In this document: one piece after another, positions 522 to 5,347 of the stretch
Layout of the letters: every line of letters begins with the position of its first letter
How positions within the stretch are numbered: position 1 is the stretch's first letter
Source: Candidatus Blautia intestinigallinarum
GTDB taxonomy: Bacteria; Bacillota; Clostridia; Lachnospirales; Lachnospiraceae
Assembly (NCBI GenBank): GCA_019112635.1
Contig: DXIX01000016.1
Coordinates: forward strand, 62,001-126,000
Direction: 5' to 3'
Length of the DNA: 64,000 bases
Made by a program: the position numbers and the translations under genes
The notes under the pieces: model-generated
Told to the model about the DNA's origin: nothing
What the model saw: only the letters and a program-made list of their open reading frames with translations
Databases searched by the model: none

Positions 522-2066
522 ATGAGCAAAAAACCAACCGTATTAATGATTCTGGATGGATATGGGTTAAATGACAAATGTGAAGCGAATGCAGTTTGTG
601 AGGGAAAGACTCCGATTATGGATCAGCTGATGTCTCAGTGTCCTTTTGTGAAGGGAGCGGCCAGCGGAATGGCAGTCGGTCTTCCGGAAGGTCAGATGGG
701 CAACTCGGAAGTGGGACACATGAATATGGGTGCCGGACGGGTAGTCTATCAGGAACTGACCAGAATTACGAAGGAGATTGAAGACGGAGATTTCTTCGAG
801 AACGAGGCACTTCTCACAGCAGTGAAGAATGCGAAAGAGAACAATTCTTCCATTCACTTTATGGGACTTTTGTCAGATGGCGGTGTTCACAGCCATAACA
901 CTCATCTCTATGCTTTGCTGGAATTGGCAAAACGGGAGGGACTTCAGAAGGTTTATGTACACTGCTTCCTGGATGGCCGTGACACACCTCCAGCATCCGG
1001 AAAAGAATATATCGAAGAACTTCAGGCTAAGATGAAGGAGATCGGCGTGGGCCAGATCGGTGTCGTGTCAGGCCGTTACTATGCGATGGACCGTGACAAC
1101 CGCTGGGATCGTGTGGAGAAAGCTTACCTTGCTCTGACAAAAGGAGAGGGAGTCAAGGGGACAGATGCTGCGCAGGCAGTTCAGGCTTCCTACGATGACG
1201 GCAAGACGGACGAGTTTGTCCTTCCGACCGTGATTGAGAAAGATGGGAAACCAGTGACCACTGTTCAGGATAAGGATTCGGTGGTATTCTTTAACTTCCG
1301 TCCGGACCGCGCAAGAGAGATTACCCGTGCTTTCTGCGCGGACGAGTTTGACGGATTTGACAGAGAAAAGAGACTGGATCTGACTTATGTGTGCTTCACA
1401 GAGTATGATGAGACAATCCCGAATAAGATCATCGCTTTCCATAAAGTGTCTATCACCAACACTTTCGGCGAATTTCTGGCAGCTCATCATATGAAGCAGG
1501 CAAGAATCGCGGAGACTGAGAAATATGCTCATGTCACCTTCTTCTTCAACGGAGGAGTGGAAGAGCCAAATGAGGGCGAGGACCGTATTCTGGTGAAATC
1601 ACCGAAGGTGGCTACTTATGATCTGAAACCGGAGATGAGTGCCTATGAAGTGTGTGATAAACTGGTGGAAGCCATCCGCTCTCTGAAATATGATGTGATT
1701 ATCATCAATTTTGCGAATCCGGATATGGTGGGCCATACCGGAGTGGAAGCGGCAGCCATCAAAGCCATTGAGGCGGTGGATGAATGTGTGGGCCGTGCTG
1801 TGGATGCCATCAAAGAAGTGGATGGTCAGATGTTTATCTGTGCTGACCACGGAAATGCAGAACAGTTGGTGGATTATGAGACTGGTGAACCTTTTACCGC
1901 TCACACGACAAATCCGGTTCCATTTATCCTGGTGAATGCAGATCCTTCTTACACACTGAGAGAGGGAGGACGTCTGGCGGATATTGTTCCGACCCTGATC
2001 GAATTGATGGGAATGGAGCAGCCTGAAGAAATGACCGGAAAATCTCTTCTGGTAAAGAAGGCATAA
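522..2066 (+). CDS. gpmI: 2,3-bisphosphoglycerate-independent phosphoglycerate mutase
   Basis: Interconverts 3- and 2-phosphoglycerate in glycolysis and gluconeogenesis using two Mn ions and a phosphoserine. The 514-residue length is normal for the family. The N-terminal metal motif LMILDGYG holds Asp12. GNSEVGHMNMGAGR carries the phosphorylated Ser62, DGRDTPP and FNFRPDRAREI match the substrate lid, and the C-terminal ADHGNAEQ and HTTNPVPF motifs complete the alkaline-phosphatase-like metal site. The ATG is preceded by AAAGGAG. The gene appears monocistronic, closed by a hairpin at 2080-2137. No oddities seen. Confidence 0.97.
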   Translation: MSKKPTVLMILDGYGLNDKCEANAVCEGKTPIMDQLMSQCPFVKGAASGMAVGLPEGQMGNSEVGHMNMGAGRVVYQELTRITKEIEDGDFFENEALLTAVKNAKENNSSIHFMGLLSDGGVHSHNTHLYALLELAKREGLQKVYVHCFLDGRDTPPASGKEYIEELQAKMKEIGVGQIGVVSGRYYAMDRDNRWDRVEKAYLALTKGEGVKGTDAAQAVQASYDDGKTDEFVLPTVIEKDGKPVTTVQDKDSVVFFNFRPDRAREITRAFCADEFDGFDREKRLDLTYVCFTEYDETIPNKIIAFHKVSITNTFGEFLAAHHMKQARIAETEKYAHVTFFFNGGVEEPNEGEDRILVKSPKVATYDLKPEMSAYEVCDKLVEAIRSLKYDVIIINFANPDMVGHTGVEAAAIKAIEAVDECVGRAVDAIKEVDGQMFICADHGNAEQLVDYETGEPFTAHTTNPVPFILVNADPSYTLREGGRLADIVPTLIELMGMEQPEEMTGKSLLVKKA

Positions 2067-2079
2067 AATAAAAAAGATA

Positions 2080-2137
2080 AATGCTCTGAGCGACTGCGGA
2101 ATCATAGTTTATGAGGCAACTGCCCAGGGCATTTTTT
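2080..2137 (+). terminator. Intrinsic terminator after gpmI
   Basis: ATGCTCTGAGC (2081-2091) can pair with GCCCAGGGCAT (2122-2132) with one mismatch and a G-U pair. TTTTTT follows. The loop is long (about 30 nt) and contains a smaller TCAT/ATGA hairpin. Confidence 0.65.
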
Positions 2138-2194
2138 GATTCTTTGAGAGGACAGAAGAGATGCAGTTCTATTTTGGTTCTGACTTTCATGGAA

Positions 2195-2401
2195 AATGTG
2201 ATAAGGGTCATTCGATTGTTCACATTCGAATGACCCTTATCAATGTTGTTCATTGTCCATTGGACGATACCTTCACTTTCTTAAACTTTTAAAAGTTTAT
2301 TCTCTTACGCTTCTGGTGGTCCGTACCTTCCTTTCATTAGATTATGAGGTAAATCTTAACGTTTTCGGTGGTCTGTCCTCCTTACGTATGATTTATTTGT
2401 T
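2195..2401 (-). ncRNA. Candidate structured non-coding RNA (about 205 nt, unassigned)
   Basis: Read on the minus strand, a perfect promoter (TTGACA, 17 bp, TATACT; 2436 to 2408) would start transcription near 2401. The unit ends in a perfect 17-bp inverted repeat with a 10-nt loop (2199-2242) followed by CATTTTCC. Between them there is no credible ORF. The only frames open at ATG codons run through the hairpin into the next gene's antisense strand and resemble no protein. The body holds an 18-bp self-complementary AU-rich palindrome (2282-2299) and two copies of a GACCACC..AA.CGT.AAGA module. I do not recognise the family. raiA-type RNA, a roughly 200-nt Firmicutes RNA, would be the first model to test, but I cannot confirm it from memory of its consensus. 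Confidence 0.6.
2199..2242 (-). terminator. Perfect 17-bp stem-loop ending the minus-strand unit
   Basis: Arms 2199-2215 and 2226-2242 are exact reverse complements around a 10-nt loop. On the minus strand the stem is followed by CATTTTCC, a short U tract. On the plus strand no U tract follows, so it most likely terminates the minus-strand RNA. Confidence 0.65.
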
Positions 2402-2407
2402 GAACTA

Positions 2408-2436
2408 AGTATAGCAAATACTTAGCTGATTGTCAA
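2408..2436 (-). promoter_or_regulatory. Consensus sigma-A promoter of the minus-strand RNA
   Basis: The -35 TTGACA is the complement of 2431-2436 and the -10 TATACT the complement of 2408-2413, with a 17-bp spacer. It matches 11 of 12 consensus bases and faces away from the downstream plus-strand operon. Confidence 0.75.
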
Positions 2437-2571
2437 TAAAAATTTTAAAAATAAAAATATAAAAATTGTATAAACTAATTTAAAAATAAAAATATCTAAA
2501 TTATCTGAAAATATAGAGAGGGAAAATATTAATAAAATGTAAAAAAAATAATAAAATTATGAAAAAAGATG

Positions 2572-2600
2572 TTGAAATATGTCGAAGACTTCCGTATCAT
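2572..2600 (+). promoter_or_regulatory. Promoter of the SGNH/DUF4358/MBOAT/DHHW cassette
   Basis: TTGAAA (2572-2577), a 17-bp spacer and TATCAT (2595-2600). It overlaps the farthest upstream possible ATG (2569), which supports translation starting at 2638 instead. The 2440-2570 stretch before it is strongly AT-rich, with no gene seen. Confidence 0.5.
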
Positions 2601-2637
2601 TAAAGAATATAAGAGGTTAAAAGTTGAGGTCACAGAA

Positions 2638-3444
2638 ATGGAAAACAGAAGAAAAAATCGCAGGAAACAGTATCTGCGGAGGAATTTTTTTCTGGCTGCC
2701 GGGATTTTTCTGCTTTTGCTCCTCACCATTGCTGTTCTGGTTTTCAGAATGCGGGCGCAAGGTGAAAAAGAGGCTGATACAGAAGAGGGAATTGCGTATC
2801 TGGAAAGTCTGGAGGCGAAGGATATGAATTCTATCCAACAGGAAATCAAGACACTCAGAAAAGAAGAGCAAAGAGAGGCTTTGACCAATGGAGATCTGAC
2901 TGTGTGGGAACAGTTTACGGATTACGCGATTCTGGGAGATTCCCGGACTATGGGGTTTGACCAGTATGGATTTCTTCCCTCCGAGAGGATTCTGGCTCAC
3001 GGAGGTGCCACAATCGCGGATATTCCGGAGTATATGGAGCAGTTGAAGGCTCTGAATCCGTCTTATGTGTTTCTGTGTTATGGTTTGAATGACGTGAGTA
3101 TCGGCTATTGGGAGACTCCGCAGGCATACACCACAGATCTGGGAAAAGCGGTTGAGTCCATCCGGACAGAGCTTCCGGATGCGCAAGTGTTTGTAAATTC
3201 CATCTTTCCGGCCCAGGATCCTGCGTTCGAACAGTCGGAAGAGTGGAGAAAGATTCCGGAATACAATGAGGTGATCAAAGCTTACTGTGAGGAAAATGGA
3301 TATCCCTATATTGATAACACCCAGATTGTCGAGGAGCATTCAGATCTCTACGATGAGGACGGGATTCATCTGCAGGAGGATTTCTATGAGTACTGGGCAG
3401 TCAATATGTTGGCAGAGGTGATGGCAGATGGAGAAAGTTCGTAA
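2638..3444 (+). CDS. Membrane-anchored SGNH/GDSL hydrolase-like protein
   Basis: A 268-residue protein with a short basic N-terminus, one membrane helix (about 17-37), then an extracytoplasmic SGNH-hydrolase domain. Visible catalytic blocks are ILGDSRTMG (nucleophile Ser102), YGLND (about 148-152) and DGIHL (Asp241, His244). Such proteins are esterases or acyl transferases on glycans. I chose the ATG at 2638 because GAGGT precedes it and the predicted promoter lies over the longer alternative start at 2569. Its 3' end overlaps the next gene by 17 bp, so the two are translationally coupled. Together with the following MBOAT and DHHW genes this suggests O-acetylation of a cell-surface polymer. 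The polymer is not identifiable from the sequence. Confidence 0.8.
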   Translation: MENRRKNRRKQYLRRNFFLAAGIFLLLLLTIAVLVFRMRAQGEKEADTEEGIAYLESLEAKDMNSIQQEIKTLRKEEQREALTNGDLTVWEQFTDYAILGDSRTMGFDQYGFLPSERILAHGGATIADIPEYMEQLKALNPSYVFLCYGLNDVSIGYWETPQAYTTDLGKAVESIRTELPDAQVFVNSIFPAQDPAFEQSEEWRKIPEYNEVIKAYCEENGYPYIDNTQIVEEHSDLYDEDGIHLQEDFYEYWAVNMLAEVMADGESS

Positions 3445-3913
3445 TAATTGGCTGACTGGAGTTCGCTATGGGATGCTGGTGTTCCTGGTGGTATTTGTGG
3501 GAATGCTGATGGGAGCGGATCGGGTGAGCGATGCGCAGATAGAAGAGGTGGAAAATGCAGTCACTGCCCAGGTGTCCATGGATGGAATGCACCAGGAGGG
3601 GAGCCAGATGGTTAAGAGACTGTATGGATTGAATGCCAATGACTATGATGGGACGATTCTGTATATCGCAGATTCCAATATGGGAGCTGAGGAGATGCTG
3701 CTGGTGAAGCTGGCGGATGTCTCCCAGGCAGATGATGTGGAGGCTGCGGTTGAGACACGGATATCAAATCAGGAAAATGCTTTTGAGGGATACGGGGCAG
3801 AGCAGTATCAGCTTTTGCAGGAGCATGTCCTGAGCGTTCAGGGAAATTATGTGTTCTTCCTGGTCCATCCGGATGCGCGGCAGGCTCAGAAAGCGTTTTT
3901 GGACAGTCTGTAA
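3428..3913 (+). CDS. DUF4358-type membrane-anchored protein
   Basis: A 161-residue protein with an N-terminal hydrophobic helix (about 12-30) and a soluble outer domain containing YIADSNMGAEEMLLVKL and NYVFFLVHPDA. These fit the DUF4358 family as I know it from clostridial acylation clusters. No catalytic motif is apparent. Start ATG at 3428 lies inside the end of the SGNH gene and is preceded by GGCAGATGG, so it probably depends on re-initiation. No function can be assigned beyond membership of the cassette. It may be a small accessory of the acyl-transfer complex (inference). Confidence 0.7.
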   Translation: MEKVRNNWLTGVRYGMLVFLVVFVGMLMGADRVSDAQIEEVENAVTAQVSMDGMHQEGSQMVKRLYGLNANDYDGTILYIADSNMGAEEMLLVKLADVSQADDVEAAVETRISNQENAFEGYGAEQYQLLQEHVLSVQGNYVFFLVHPDARQAQKAFLDSL

Positions 3914-3931
3914 ATGAAGTGGGGATAAGAG

Positions 3932-5347
3932 ATGATATTCAGCAGTGTTTTTTTTATTTTTGTCTTTCTCCCGGTGACCTTGATCGTATATTATCTGGTG
4001 CCGTGGAGAATCAAAAATCTGGTTCTGTTACTGTTCAGTCTGATTTTTTATGCCTGGGGAGAACCGGTATATATTTTTCTAATGATGTTCAGCATCGTCT
4101 TTAATTATTTCAGCGGGCTGGAGCTGGATCTGAGGAGAAGGACAGGAGAGAGACTGAAATTTAAAATTTGTTTTCTTACAACGGTTGTGGCAAACCTGGC
4201 AATTCTGGGATTTTTTAAGTATTACGGCTTCTTTGTTCTCAATCTGAACAGGATTCTTCCTGTGGATATTCCCTATCAGGAACTTGCTCTTCCCATCGGA
4301 ATTTCTTTTTATACTTTCCAGACATTATCTTATATCATTGACGTTTATTGGGGAAATGTAGAGGTGCAGAAGAATCTGATTTCCTTTGGGACTTATGTGA
4401 CGATGTTTCCTCAGTTGATCGCCGGACCGATTGTGCGTTATGCAGATGTGGAGAAGCAGCTGCGCAGCAGAACACTCTCCCTGACAAAGTTTGGAGACGG
4501 TGTGCTCTGGTTTTTGAGAGGACTGGGCAAGAAAGTTCTGCTTGCCAATAACATTGGTATGGTGTTTGACACCATTGTGGCCATGGGGAGTGATGAGAGA
4601 TCGGTTCTGACAGCCTGGATTGGATGTCTGGCTTATACCATGCAGATTTATTATGATTTCAGCGGTTACTCGGATATGGCCATAGGACTGGGAAAAATGC
4701 TGGGATTTGAGTTTGTGAAAAACTTTGAATATCCTTATATTTCCAGAAGCATTACGGAATTCTGGCGCCGCTGGCATATCTCACTGGGAACCTGGTTCCG
4801 GGAATATGTATATATTCCGCTGGGCGGCAACCGGGTATCTGTACCGAAGCATATCAGAAATATTATGGTTGTCTGGATTTTAACTGGTTTCTGGCATGGC
4901 GCCGCGTGGAATTTTATGTTTTGGGGATTTTATTACGGGATACTTCTTCTGGTGGAAAAATATTTTCTTCATTCGATTCTGGAGAAGGCTCCCGCCTTCG
5001 TATCTCATATTTACACGATGCTGCTGGTGATGATCGGATGGGTATTTTTCTTCTCCTCTTCCATGGGACAGGCAGGTGCCTATCTGGGAAATATGATAGG
5101 AATCACAGGTGCCGGTCTGGTGGATCATACGGGAGTATATTATCTCACGACAAATCTGATTTTGATGATCGTGATGATTCTGTGTGCCACACCGAAAGTC
5201 TATGGGTGGTTCCGGCGTTTTGCTCTGGAAGATAATTCCGCTCTGCGCCTTACTGCCACAATTTTGGTATATGCAGGAATTTTTGTGGCATCGACCGCAT
5301 ATTTAGTAAATATGACTTATAACCCGTTTTTATATTTTAGATTTTAA
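3932..5347 (+). CDS. MBOAT family membrane O-acyltransferase (AlgI/DltB-like)
   Basis: A 471-residue polytopic membrane protein. The MBOAT signature includes QLIAGPIVRY, YYDFSGYSDMAIGLGKMLGF, the WRRWHISLG motif, and GFWHGAAWNF with the invariant histidine at about residue 322. Family members move acyl groups across the membrane for O-acylation of alginate, teichoic acid or peptidoglycan. The alginate-type partner (DHHW protein) follows directly, so acetyl transfer to an exported polysaccharide is the best inference. It starts 18 bp after the DUF4358 gene with GGGGATAAGAG upstream. The length and blocks look intact. Confidence 0.92.
   Translation: MIFSSVFFIFVFLPVTLIVYYLVPWRIKNLVLLLFSLIFYAWGEPVYIFLMMFSIVFNYFSGLELDLRRRTGERLKFKICFLTTVVANLAILGFFKYYGFFVLNLNRILPVDIPYQELALPIGISFYTFQTLSYIIDVYWGNVEVQKNLISFGTYVTMFPQLIAGPIVRYADVEKQLRSRTLSLTKFGDGVLWFLRGLGKKVLLANNIGMVFDTIVAMGSDERSVLTAWIGCLAYTMQIYYDFSGYSDMAIGLGKMLGFEFVKNFEYPYISRSITEFWRRWHISLGTWFREYVYIPLGGNRVSVPKHIRNIMVVWILTGFWHGAAWNFMFWGFYYGILLLVEKYFLHSILEKAPAFVSHIYTMLLVMIGWVFFFSSSMGQAGAYLGNMIGITGAGLVDHTGVYYLTTNLILMIVMILCATPKVYGWFRRFALEDNSALRLTATILVYAGIFVASTAYLVNMTYNPFLYFRF

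Follow-up and report, generated by a model that had tools for sequence, protein, structure and literature searches.

A conserved RNA family of Clostridia with repeated units resembling translation-initiation sites

Sponge RNAs such as CsrB and RsmZ are stand-alone transcripts that repeat a ribosome-binding-site-like element in variable copy number. Leader peptide and attenuator RNAs carry a short ORF next to an intrinsic terminator. The lambda bar minigenes and other AUG-N-stop minigenes join a Shine-Dalgarno (SD) sequence to a very short ORF, and the STAB-SD stabiliser of Bacillus cry3A-type mRNA uses an SD without making protein. Among RNAs of Clostridiales or the human gut, TwoAYGGAY, Clostridiales-1 and Gut-1 are listed in PMC2864571 as probably not cis-regulatory.

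We analyzed a 64,000-nt stretch of the genome of Candidatus Blautia intestinigallinarum (the window). On its minus strand, at positions 2195-2436, a TTGACA-17-TATACT promoter is followed by about 210 nt that end in a 17-bp hairpin. The RNA contains units in which an SD-like sequence has, at constant spacing after it, either CCr (A-type) or AUG, two codons and a stop (B-type), and the window copy has two A-type units ahead of a micro-ORF for MDNEQH:

2408..2436, minus strand: promoter, with -35 TTGACA at 2436-2431, 17 nt, and -10 TATACT at 2413-2408
2355..2383, minus strand: unit 1, A-type, SD-like AAGGAGG, then CCACC at the start-codon position
2304..2333, minus strand: unit 2, A-type, AAGGAAGGTACGGACCACCAGAAGCGTAA
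2261..2278, minus strand: terminal unit, SD-like part with its spacer, AAGTGAAGGTATCGTCCA
2240..2260, minus strand (read 2260-2240): terminal micro-ORF, ATG GAC AAT GAA CAA CAT TGA (MDNEQH*), 6 codons, conserved
2199..2242, minus strand: hairpin, in which 2199-2215 pairs with 2226-2242 without a mismatch (17 bp)

The promoter matches the consensus at 11/12 positions, has a TG before its -10 (extended -10), and outranks the 11 other promoter-like sites of 1500-3500 (shuffled sequences average 3.4 sites); transcription would start near 2401. Similarity at the DNA level retrieved 20 loci, counting that of the window itself; 19 of the 20 fit the pattern TTGACA plus TATANT, and the remaining one (L008) reads by eye as TTGACA-17-TATGGT. 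The hairpin, whose base is overlapped by the stop of the micro-ORF, is probably an intrinsic terminator with a weak T-run in this species. Only four T come after it on the minus strand, which is why a terminator scan of the window did not list it; the terminators of relatives carry a T-run, and the window hairpin is weaker than theirs. The locus lies between two plus-strand genes: ORF 522-2066, which from its sequence we take to be gpmI and which is convergent with the RNA, and ORF 2569-3444, which encodes a GDSL lipase (PF13472). The promoter, the perfect stem-loop and the placement between two plus-strand genes had all been called by a first-pass annotation of this DNA, and each call is borne out. 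In the window at 2569-5347, the GDSL lipase, a DUF4358 protein and what its sequence leads us to regard as an MBOAT acyltransferase are encoded one after another and may form a cluster for polysaccharide acetylation.

Relatives of the RNA are common in the genus of the window. A DNA search gave a match at E<=1 in 48/61 genomes, with a best match of E 0.001 outside the genus, and the 20 retrieved loci are plainly homologous. A sequence-only model (R1), built from the 19 loci that fit the promoter and first-unit pattern (L008 was omitted), matched 52/64 genus genomes at E<=0.1 and, its 19 training loci included, 36/64 at E<=1e-11; two genus genomes more than 90% complete (G014 and G019) gave no R1 match. 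The RNA is conserved in relatives, one of the points on which the first-pass annotation made a functional RNA depend. A second clear copy was found in the window's own genome, outside the window (G000, contig C27:25532-25655, locus L079, region to 25800). It has an A-type and a B-type unit (the latter ATG GGA AAG TAA), a terminal MHGIS* and a terminator.

Outside the genus, a 27-nt pattern run over genome contigs retrieved 64 stretches, most of them in records named Lachnospiraceae or genera of that family, among them the common gut genera Blautia, Roseburia and Eisenbergiella; the rest were uncultured bacterium (3), Bacillota (2), and Clostridiales, Eubacteriales, Acetivibrio and Chryseobacterium (1 each). 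A two-unit model (R2), built from 59 unit pairs, matched 48/120 genera of the family at E<=1e-4 with one genome per genus, a count that may include training genomes, and 8/196 genomes of the class at E<=1e-3, of which four belong to other families. The pattern AGGTANRGWCCRATGNNNNNNTAR had 22 matches, in 17/391 class genomes, whereas its reversed form had 2, and 15 of these 17 genomes are outside the family. Most of the out-of-family loci show by eye a promoter-like stretch ahead of the unit; two loci of one genome (G747) look different from the others. Loci L231-L246, outside the family, share a conserved middle element ACACGACGGTG..ACGT..ATAGATT, and in most of them AAATTCGCCTTTTG stands after the unit, ahead of the terminal ORF. 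At L236 and L248 (G747), a unit-like AGGTACAGACCAATG-NNN-NNN-TAA comes after similar upstream sequence, and by eye no usual promoter was seen.

The covariance-model scan proposed in the first-pass annotation matched no known family at this RNA: Rfam 15 (4227 models) gave 0 matches above the gathering cut-off over the whole window, and the 13 sub-threshold matches near the locus had E 0.43 or worse, all far below gathering scores. A further 38 locus ids (L065 and L082 were done twice, and some ids denote an identical place) matched only TPP, tRNA and one Gut-1, each beside the RNA. The Gut-1 RNA (RF01706, 72.6 bits) is at L235:2091-2165, just 3' of a unit RNA and a tRNA. The suggestion of a raiA-type RNA found no raiA match in these scans. 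Searches of Rfam 15 (for the loci named) and of the literature returned, among the matches listed, no natural RNA made of repeated initiation sites. The window RNA apparently belongs to a conserved RNA family, undescribed so far, and the known kinds tested do not fit it. The relatives, the promoter conservation and the Rfam scans support the first-pass annotation in part: they favour a conserved gene for an RNA that has a promoter to itself and matches no family of Rfam 15.

The conserved content of this RNA is linear, consisting of ribosome-binding-site-like repeats and a micro-ORF under coding-like constraint. The consensus of a position-specific matrix is GAAAGGrAGGTACrGwCCA-(CCr or ATG)-rrAaACnTAA, from 277 units of 70 loci that are not all independent. 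Its middle triplet is bimodal (CCA 101, CCG 69, ATG 65, TTG 34, others 8). Genus RNAs carry from 3 units (window) up to 11 (L003), and none of the 206 unit spacings below 200 nt is below 45 nt. The CC and rrAaAC positions, which lie beyond the SD, match it approximately in conservation, and GGAGG varies among units (GAGAGG, GCGAGG, GGACGG). Pairing with what we take to be the 16S 3' end was predicted at -10.5 kcal/mol for A-type and -8.8 for B-type units, against -5.3 and -5.8 for shuffles, figures that describe the motif, since units were picked by sequence. Among distinct non-terminal AUG units, 55/56 have an in-frame stop by codon 4 (other frames 0/56 and 1/56), and the two codons are not conserved as a peptide. 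A stop triplet in the corresponding frame is retained by 143/162 distinct A-type units even though these have no start codon; stops are slightly commoner in AUG units (55/56 vs 143/162, p 0.03), and the use of TAG/TGA does not differ between the two types (p 0.20). The UAA of A-type units may be part of a motif that is recognized but not translated. At L081 (G030:C68) and L153 (G065:C1:329018), related RNAs have one unit each and a long tail sharing GTTCCTGCrAGAAAGACC; in L081 an ORF for NNEEF, possibly started by UUG, ends at a terminator.

The terminal micro-ORF was followed with a finder that has no rules for codons 2 onward. From 39 loci, 32 of the genus and seven others (one Blautia), it located the terminal unit and terminator in 36; the three missed (L008, L015, L019) have the same ORF when read otherwise. 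All 36 terminal ORFs stop in frame after 5 or 6 codons, compared with a stop within seven codons in 0/36 for the second frame and 27/36 for the third. Codon 2 is GAC in 21, GAT in 12, and GAA, CAC and CAG in 1 each; codon 4 is GAA in 33 and GAG in 3, the seven non-genus loci having been preselected partly by GAR at codon 4, so that their codon 4 is not independent evidence. The 29 genus loci give GAC 18, GAT 10 and GAA 1 at codon 2, and GAA 26 and GAG 3 at codon 4. With 30 distinct sequences among the 36, and TAA, TAG and TGA all used, the codon changes look coding and the constraint coding-like. A dual-function (coding) small RNA would have a conserved, translated ORF inside a regulatory RNA; what is observed here is coding-like constraint in the sequence. 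The first-pass annotation had found no credible ORF in the RNA, which stands for ORFs of ordinary size and fails for the conserved 6-codon MDNEQH* at 2260-2240.

More generally, the terminal ORF has mostly 5 to 10 codons and ends at the terminator. We counted, over 176 locus ids, SD-preceded ORFs whose stop begins between 7 nt before and 6 nt inside the stem: such a micro-ORF ends at 76/124 terminators that follow a unit and at 12/788 other terminators of the same loci, where the rule used (the terminator nearest downstream of a strong unit) is a rough one and kin may be present among the controls, e.g. L081. No terminal ORF was found at the other 48/124. Of the 76 micro-ORFs so detected, 59 have a stop that begins 1-5 nt ahead of the stem and 14 one that begins inside it. 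Six loci of one group (g34: L053, L055, L057, L061, L062, L063) have a 10-codon terminal ORF like LGSILRGGTS, whose stop is 11-13 nt inside the stem. In other families, MLDIKSEQK or kin is the terminal ORF, with many synonymous changes, in 10/11 loci followed to the end (one more, L232, gave no end).

We weighed several explanations of these features. The first-pass annotation proposed a structured regulatory RNA, and the folding z-score of the whole window RNA (-5.37) would agree with it; this value is due to the hairpin, since without it the body folds like shuffled sequences (z -1.29), and the bodies of 32 genus loci without their terminators average +0.43. The covariation test that it suggested, run with RNAalifold on 19 loci aligned from promoter to unit 2, gave 6 pairs and zero compensatory changes, and with the z-scores this speaks against covarying helices beyond the terminator. 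Unit hairpins are weak in A-type units (mean -3.0 vs -2.2 kcal/mol shuffled) and equal to shuffled in B-type units. The claim of a structured RNA is therefore not borne out, and we consider that explanation very improbable. Direct repeats in variable number would also be expected of a DNA-level repeat array or remnant with incidental transcription, a reading made scarcely credible by the promoter kept in the 20 retrieved loci, the terminators and the reading-frame constraint. A mobile element was likewise set aside, one array having no match among phage and plasmid records, a result that also tells against the repeat-array reading. The chief rival, judging from the conservation outside the SD, would be a factor sponge of the CsrB kind, in which the units bind some RNA-binding protein or sRNA that normally acts at ribosome-binding sites and the repeats titrate it. 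Tandem repeats in variable number, an unstructured body suited to a linear-motif binder, and positions conserved beyond the SD, also in A-type units without a start, all argue for it. We nevertheless hold it to be unlikely, though a serious contender: CsrA is above the Pfam cut-off in 1/64 genus genomes and in 0/34 good ones (none was found in the window's own genome, 75.5% complete), so that a CsrA sponge is rejected for this genus, and exact-match searches of 15 genus genomes revealed neither a group of mRNAs sharing the site nor a complement that recurs. In these genomes GGTANNGWCCAWTG and GGTANNGWCCACC occur at the RNA loci and at scattered others; unit cores away from the RNA loci number 31 vs 20 for the reversed pattern in one search and 24 vs 53 in the other, and 30 loci read from the 31-vs-20 search looked like ordinary coding sequence. 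An mRNA regulon or antisense partner was rejected on these grounds.

The second rival would turn on the terminator, the terminal micropeptide being a functional product, or its translation controlling the adjoining terminator and so the downstream gene, with the upstream units loading or spacing ribosomes. This fits the recurrence of terminal peptides with synonymous changes (MDNEQ, MDSIV, MKLTIIH, MLDIKSEQK) and the position of the stop just before or inside the stem. It also fits part of the genomic context, in which the next ORF (>=100 aa) shares the strand of the RNA in 71/122 non-genus loci (39 opposite, 12 none; 45 ids were excluded beforehand, and duplicates (40) and ids lacking a strong unit (16) were dropped) and in 24 of 30 genus loci (4 opposite, 2 none). 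GH3 proteins are encoded downstream at L058, L059 and L093, the three loci tested of one group; elsewhere the downstream protein is a polysaccharide deacetylase (L015) or an enolase (L149), and the upstream ORF begins like enolase, by eye, in 21/32 genus loci. The downstream gene is thus often co-directional yet not constant, and there is none in the window: with 39/122 and 4/30 next ORFs on the opposite strand and gpmI convergent, there is no fixed downstream gene, and a leader of a downstream gene was rejected even though 71 non-genus loci have it on the same strand. As the identity of the peptide also differs among groups, we find this rival rather improbable, below the sponge.

The reading that we tentatively favour, at somewhat less than an even chance, is that of a stand-alone RNA gene whose modules mimic translation-initiation sites, on which ribosomes dock and which serves as a decoy or translation sensor. 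30S subunits or ribosomes would dock on every unit, leaving the RNA lined with ribosomes; A-type units would hold 30S without starting, B-type units would run start-stop cycles, and the terminal micro-ORF would be translated and keep the 3' end covered. The role is the weakest step: the RNA might act as a decoy by occupying initiation capacity, or might sense translation through a ribosome-dependent stability of its own. Docking is the simplest reading of the SD, the spacing, the start-stop frames, the unstructured body and the terminal ORF. A decoy would have to bind 30S or ribosomes in the cell, and what was obtained on this point is a predicted SD:anti-SD pairing. Several observations go against it. 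The startless A-type units that keep a stop triplet (143/162) are hard to reconcile with a meaning that is translational only, and the conservation of CC and rrAaAC, close to that of the SD, is more than ribosome binding by itself calls for. In addition, GGAGG varies, non-terminal codons are not conserved, and the terminal ORF was not found at 48/124 terminators and extends 11-13 nt into the stem in the six g34 loci. A possible but more doubtful generalization is a chromosomal RNA class of Clostridia that imitates polysomes, with startless and start-two codons-stop docking modules and a terminator-abutting micro-ORF, and that holds or meters ribosomes or initiation factors. A linear motif of this kind would be overlooked by RNA searches that rely on structure. 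Should the RNA hold ribosomes, bacteria would have a new way of tuning translation; should a protein or another RNA be what it holds, it would point to a new regulator in a genus nearly without CsrA.

Compared with described systems, this family resembles TwoAYGGAY, Clostridiales-1 and Gut-1 in host range and in the ACGGAC present in some units; in PMC2864571 those three are presented as structured motifs, whereas the window RNA has no Rfam match. Like CsrB and RsmZ, it stands alone and has a ribosome-binding-site-like element in variable copy number, but its host genus is nearly devoid of CsrA, it carries micro-ORFs, and in place of GGA in hairpin loops it has several units lacking GGA and unit hairpins that are weak or absent. 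With leader peptide and attenuator RNAs it shares a short ORF beside an intrinsic terminator, and it differs from them in having no constant downstream gene and several start-stop units upstream. The SD plus very short ORF recalls lambda bar and AUG-N-stop minigenes, although the units here are tandem, chromosomal and conserved over a bacterial family, with codons that are not conserved. Finally, the proposed use of an SD without a protein product is that of STAB-SD, from which this family is set apart by many SDs along the whole RNA, with its own promoter and terminator.
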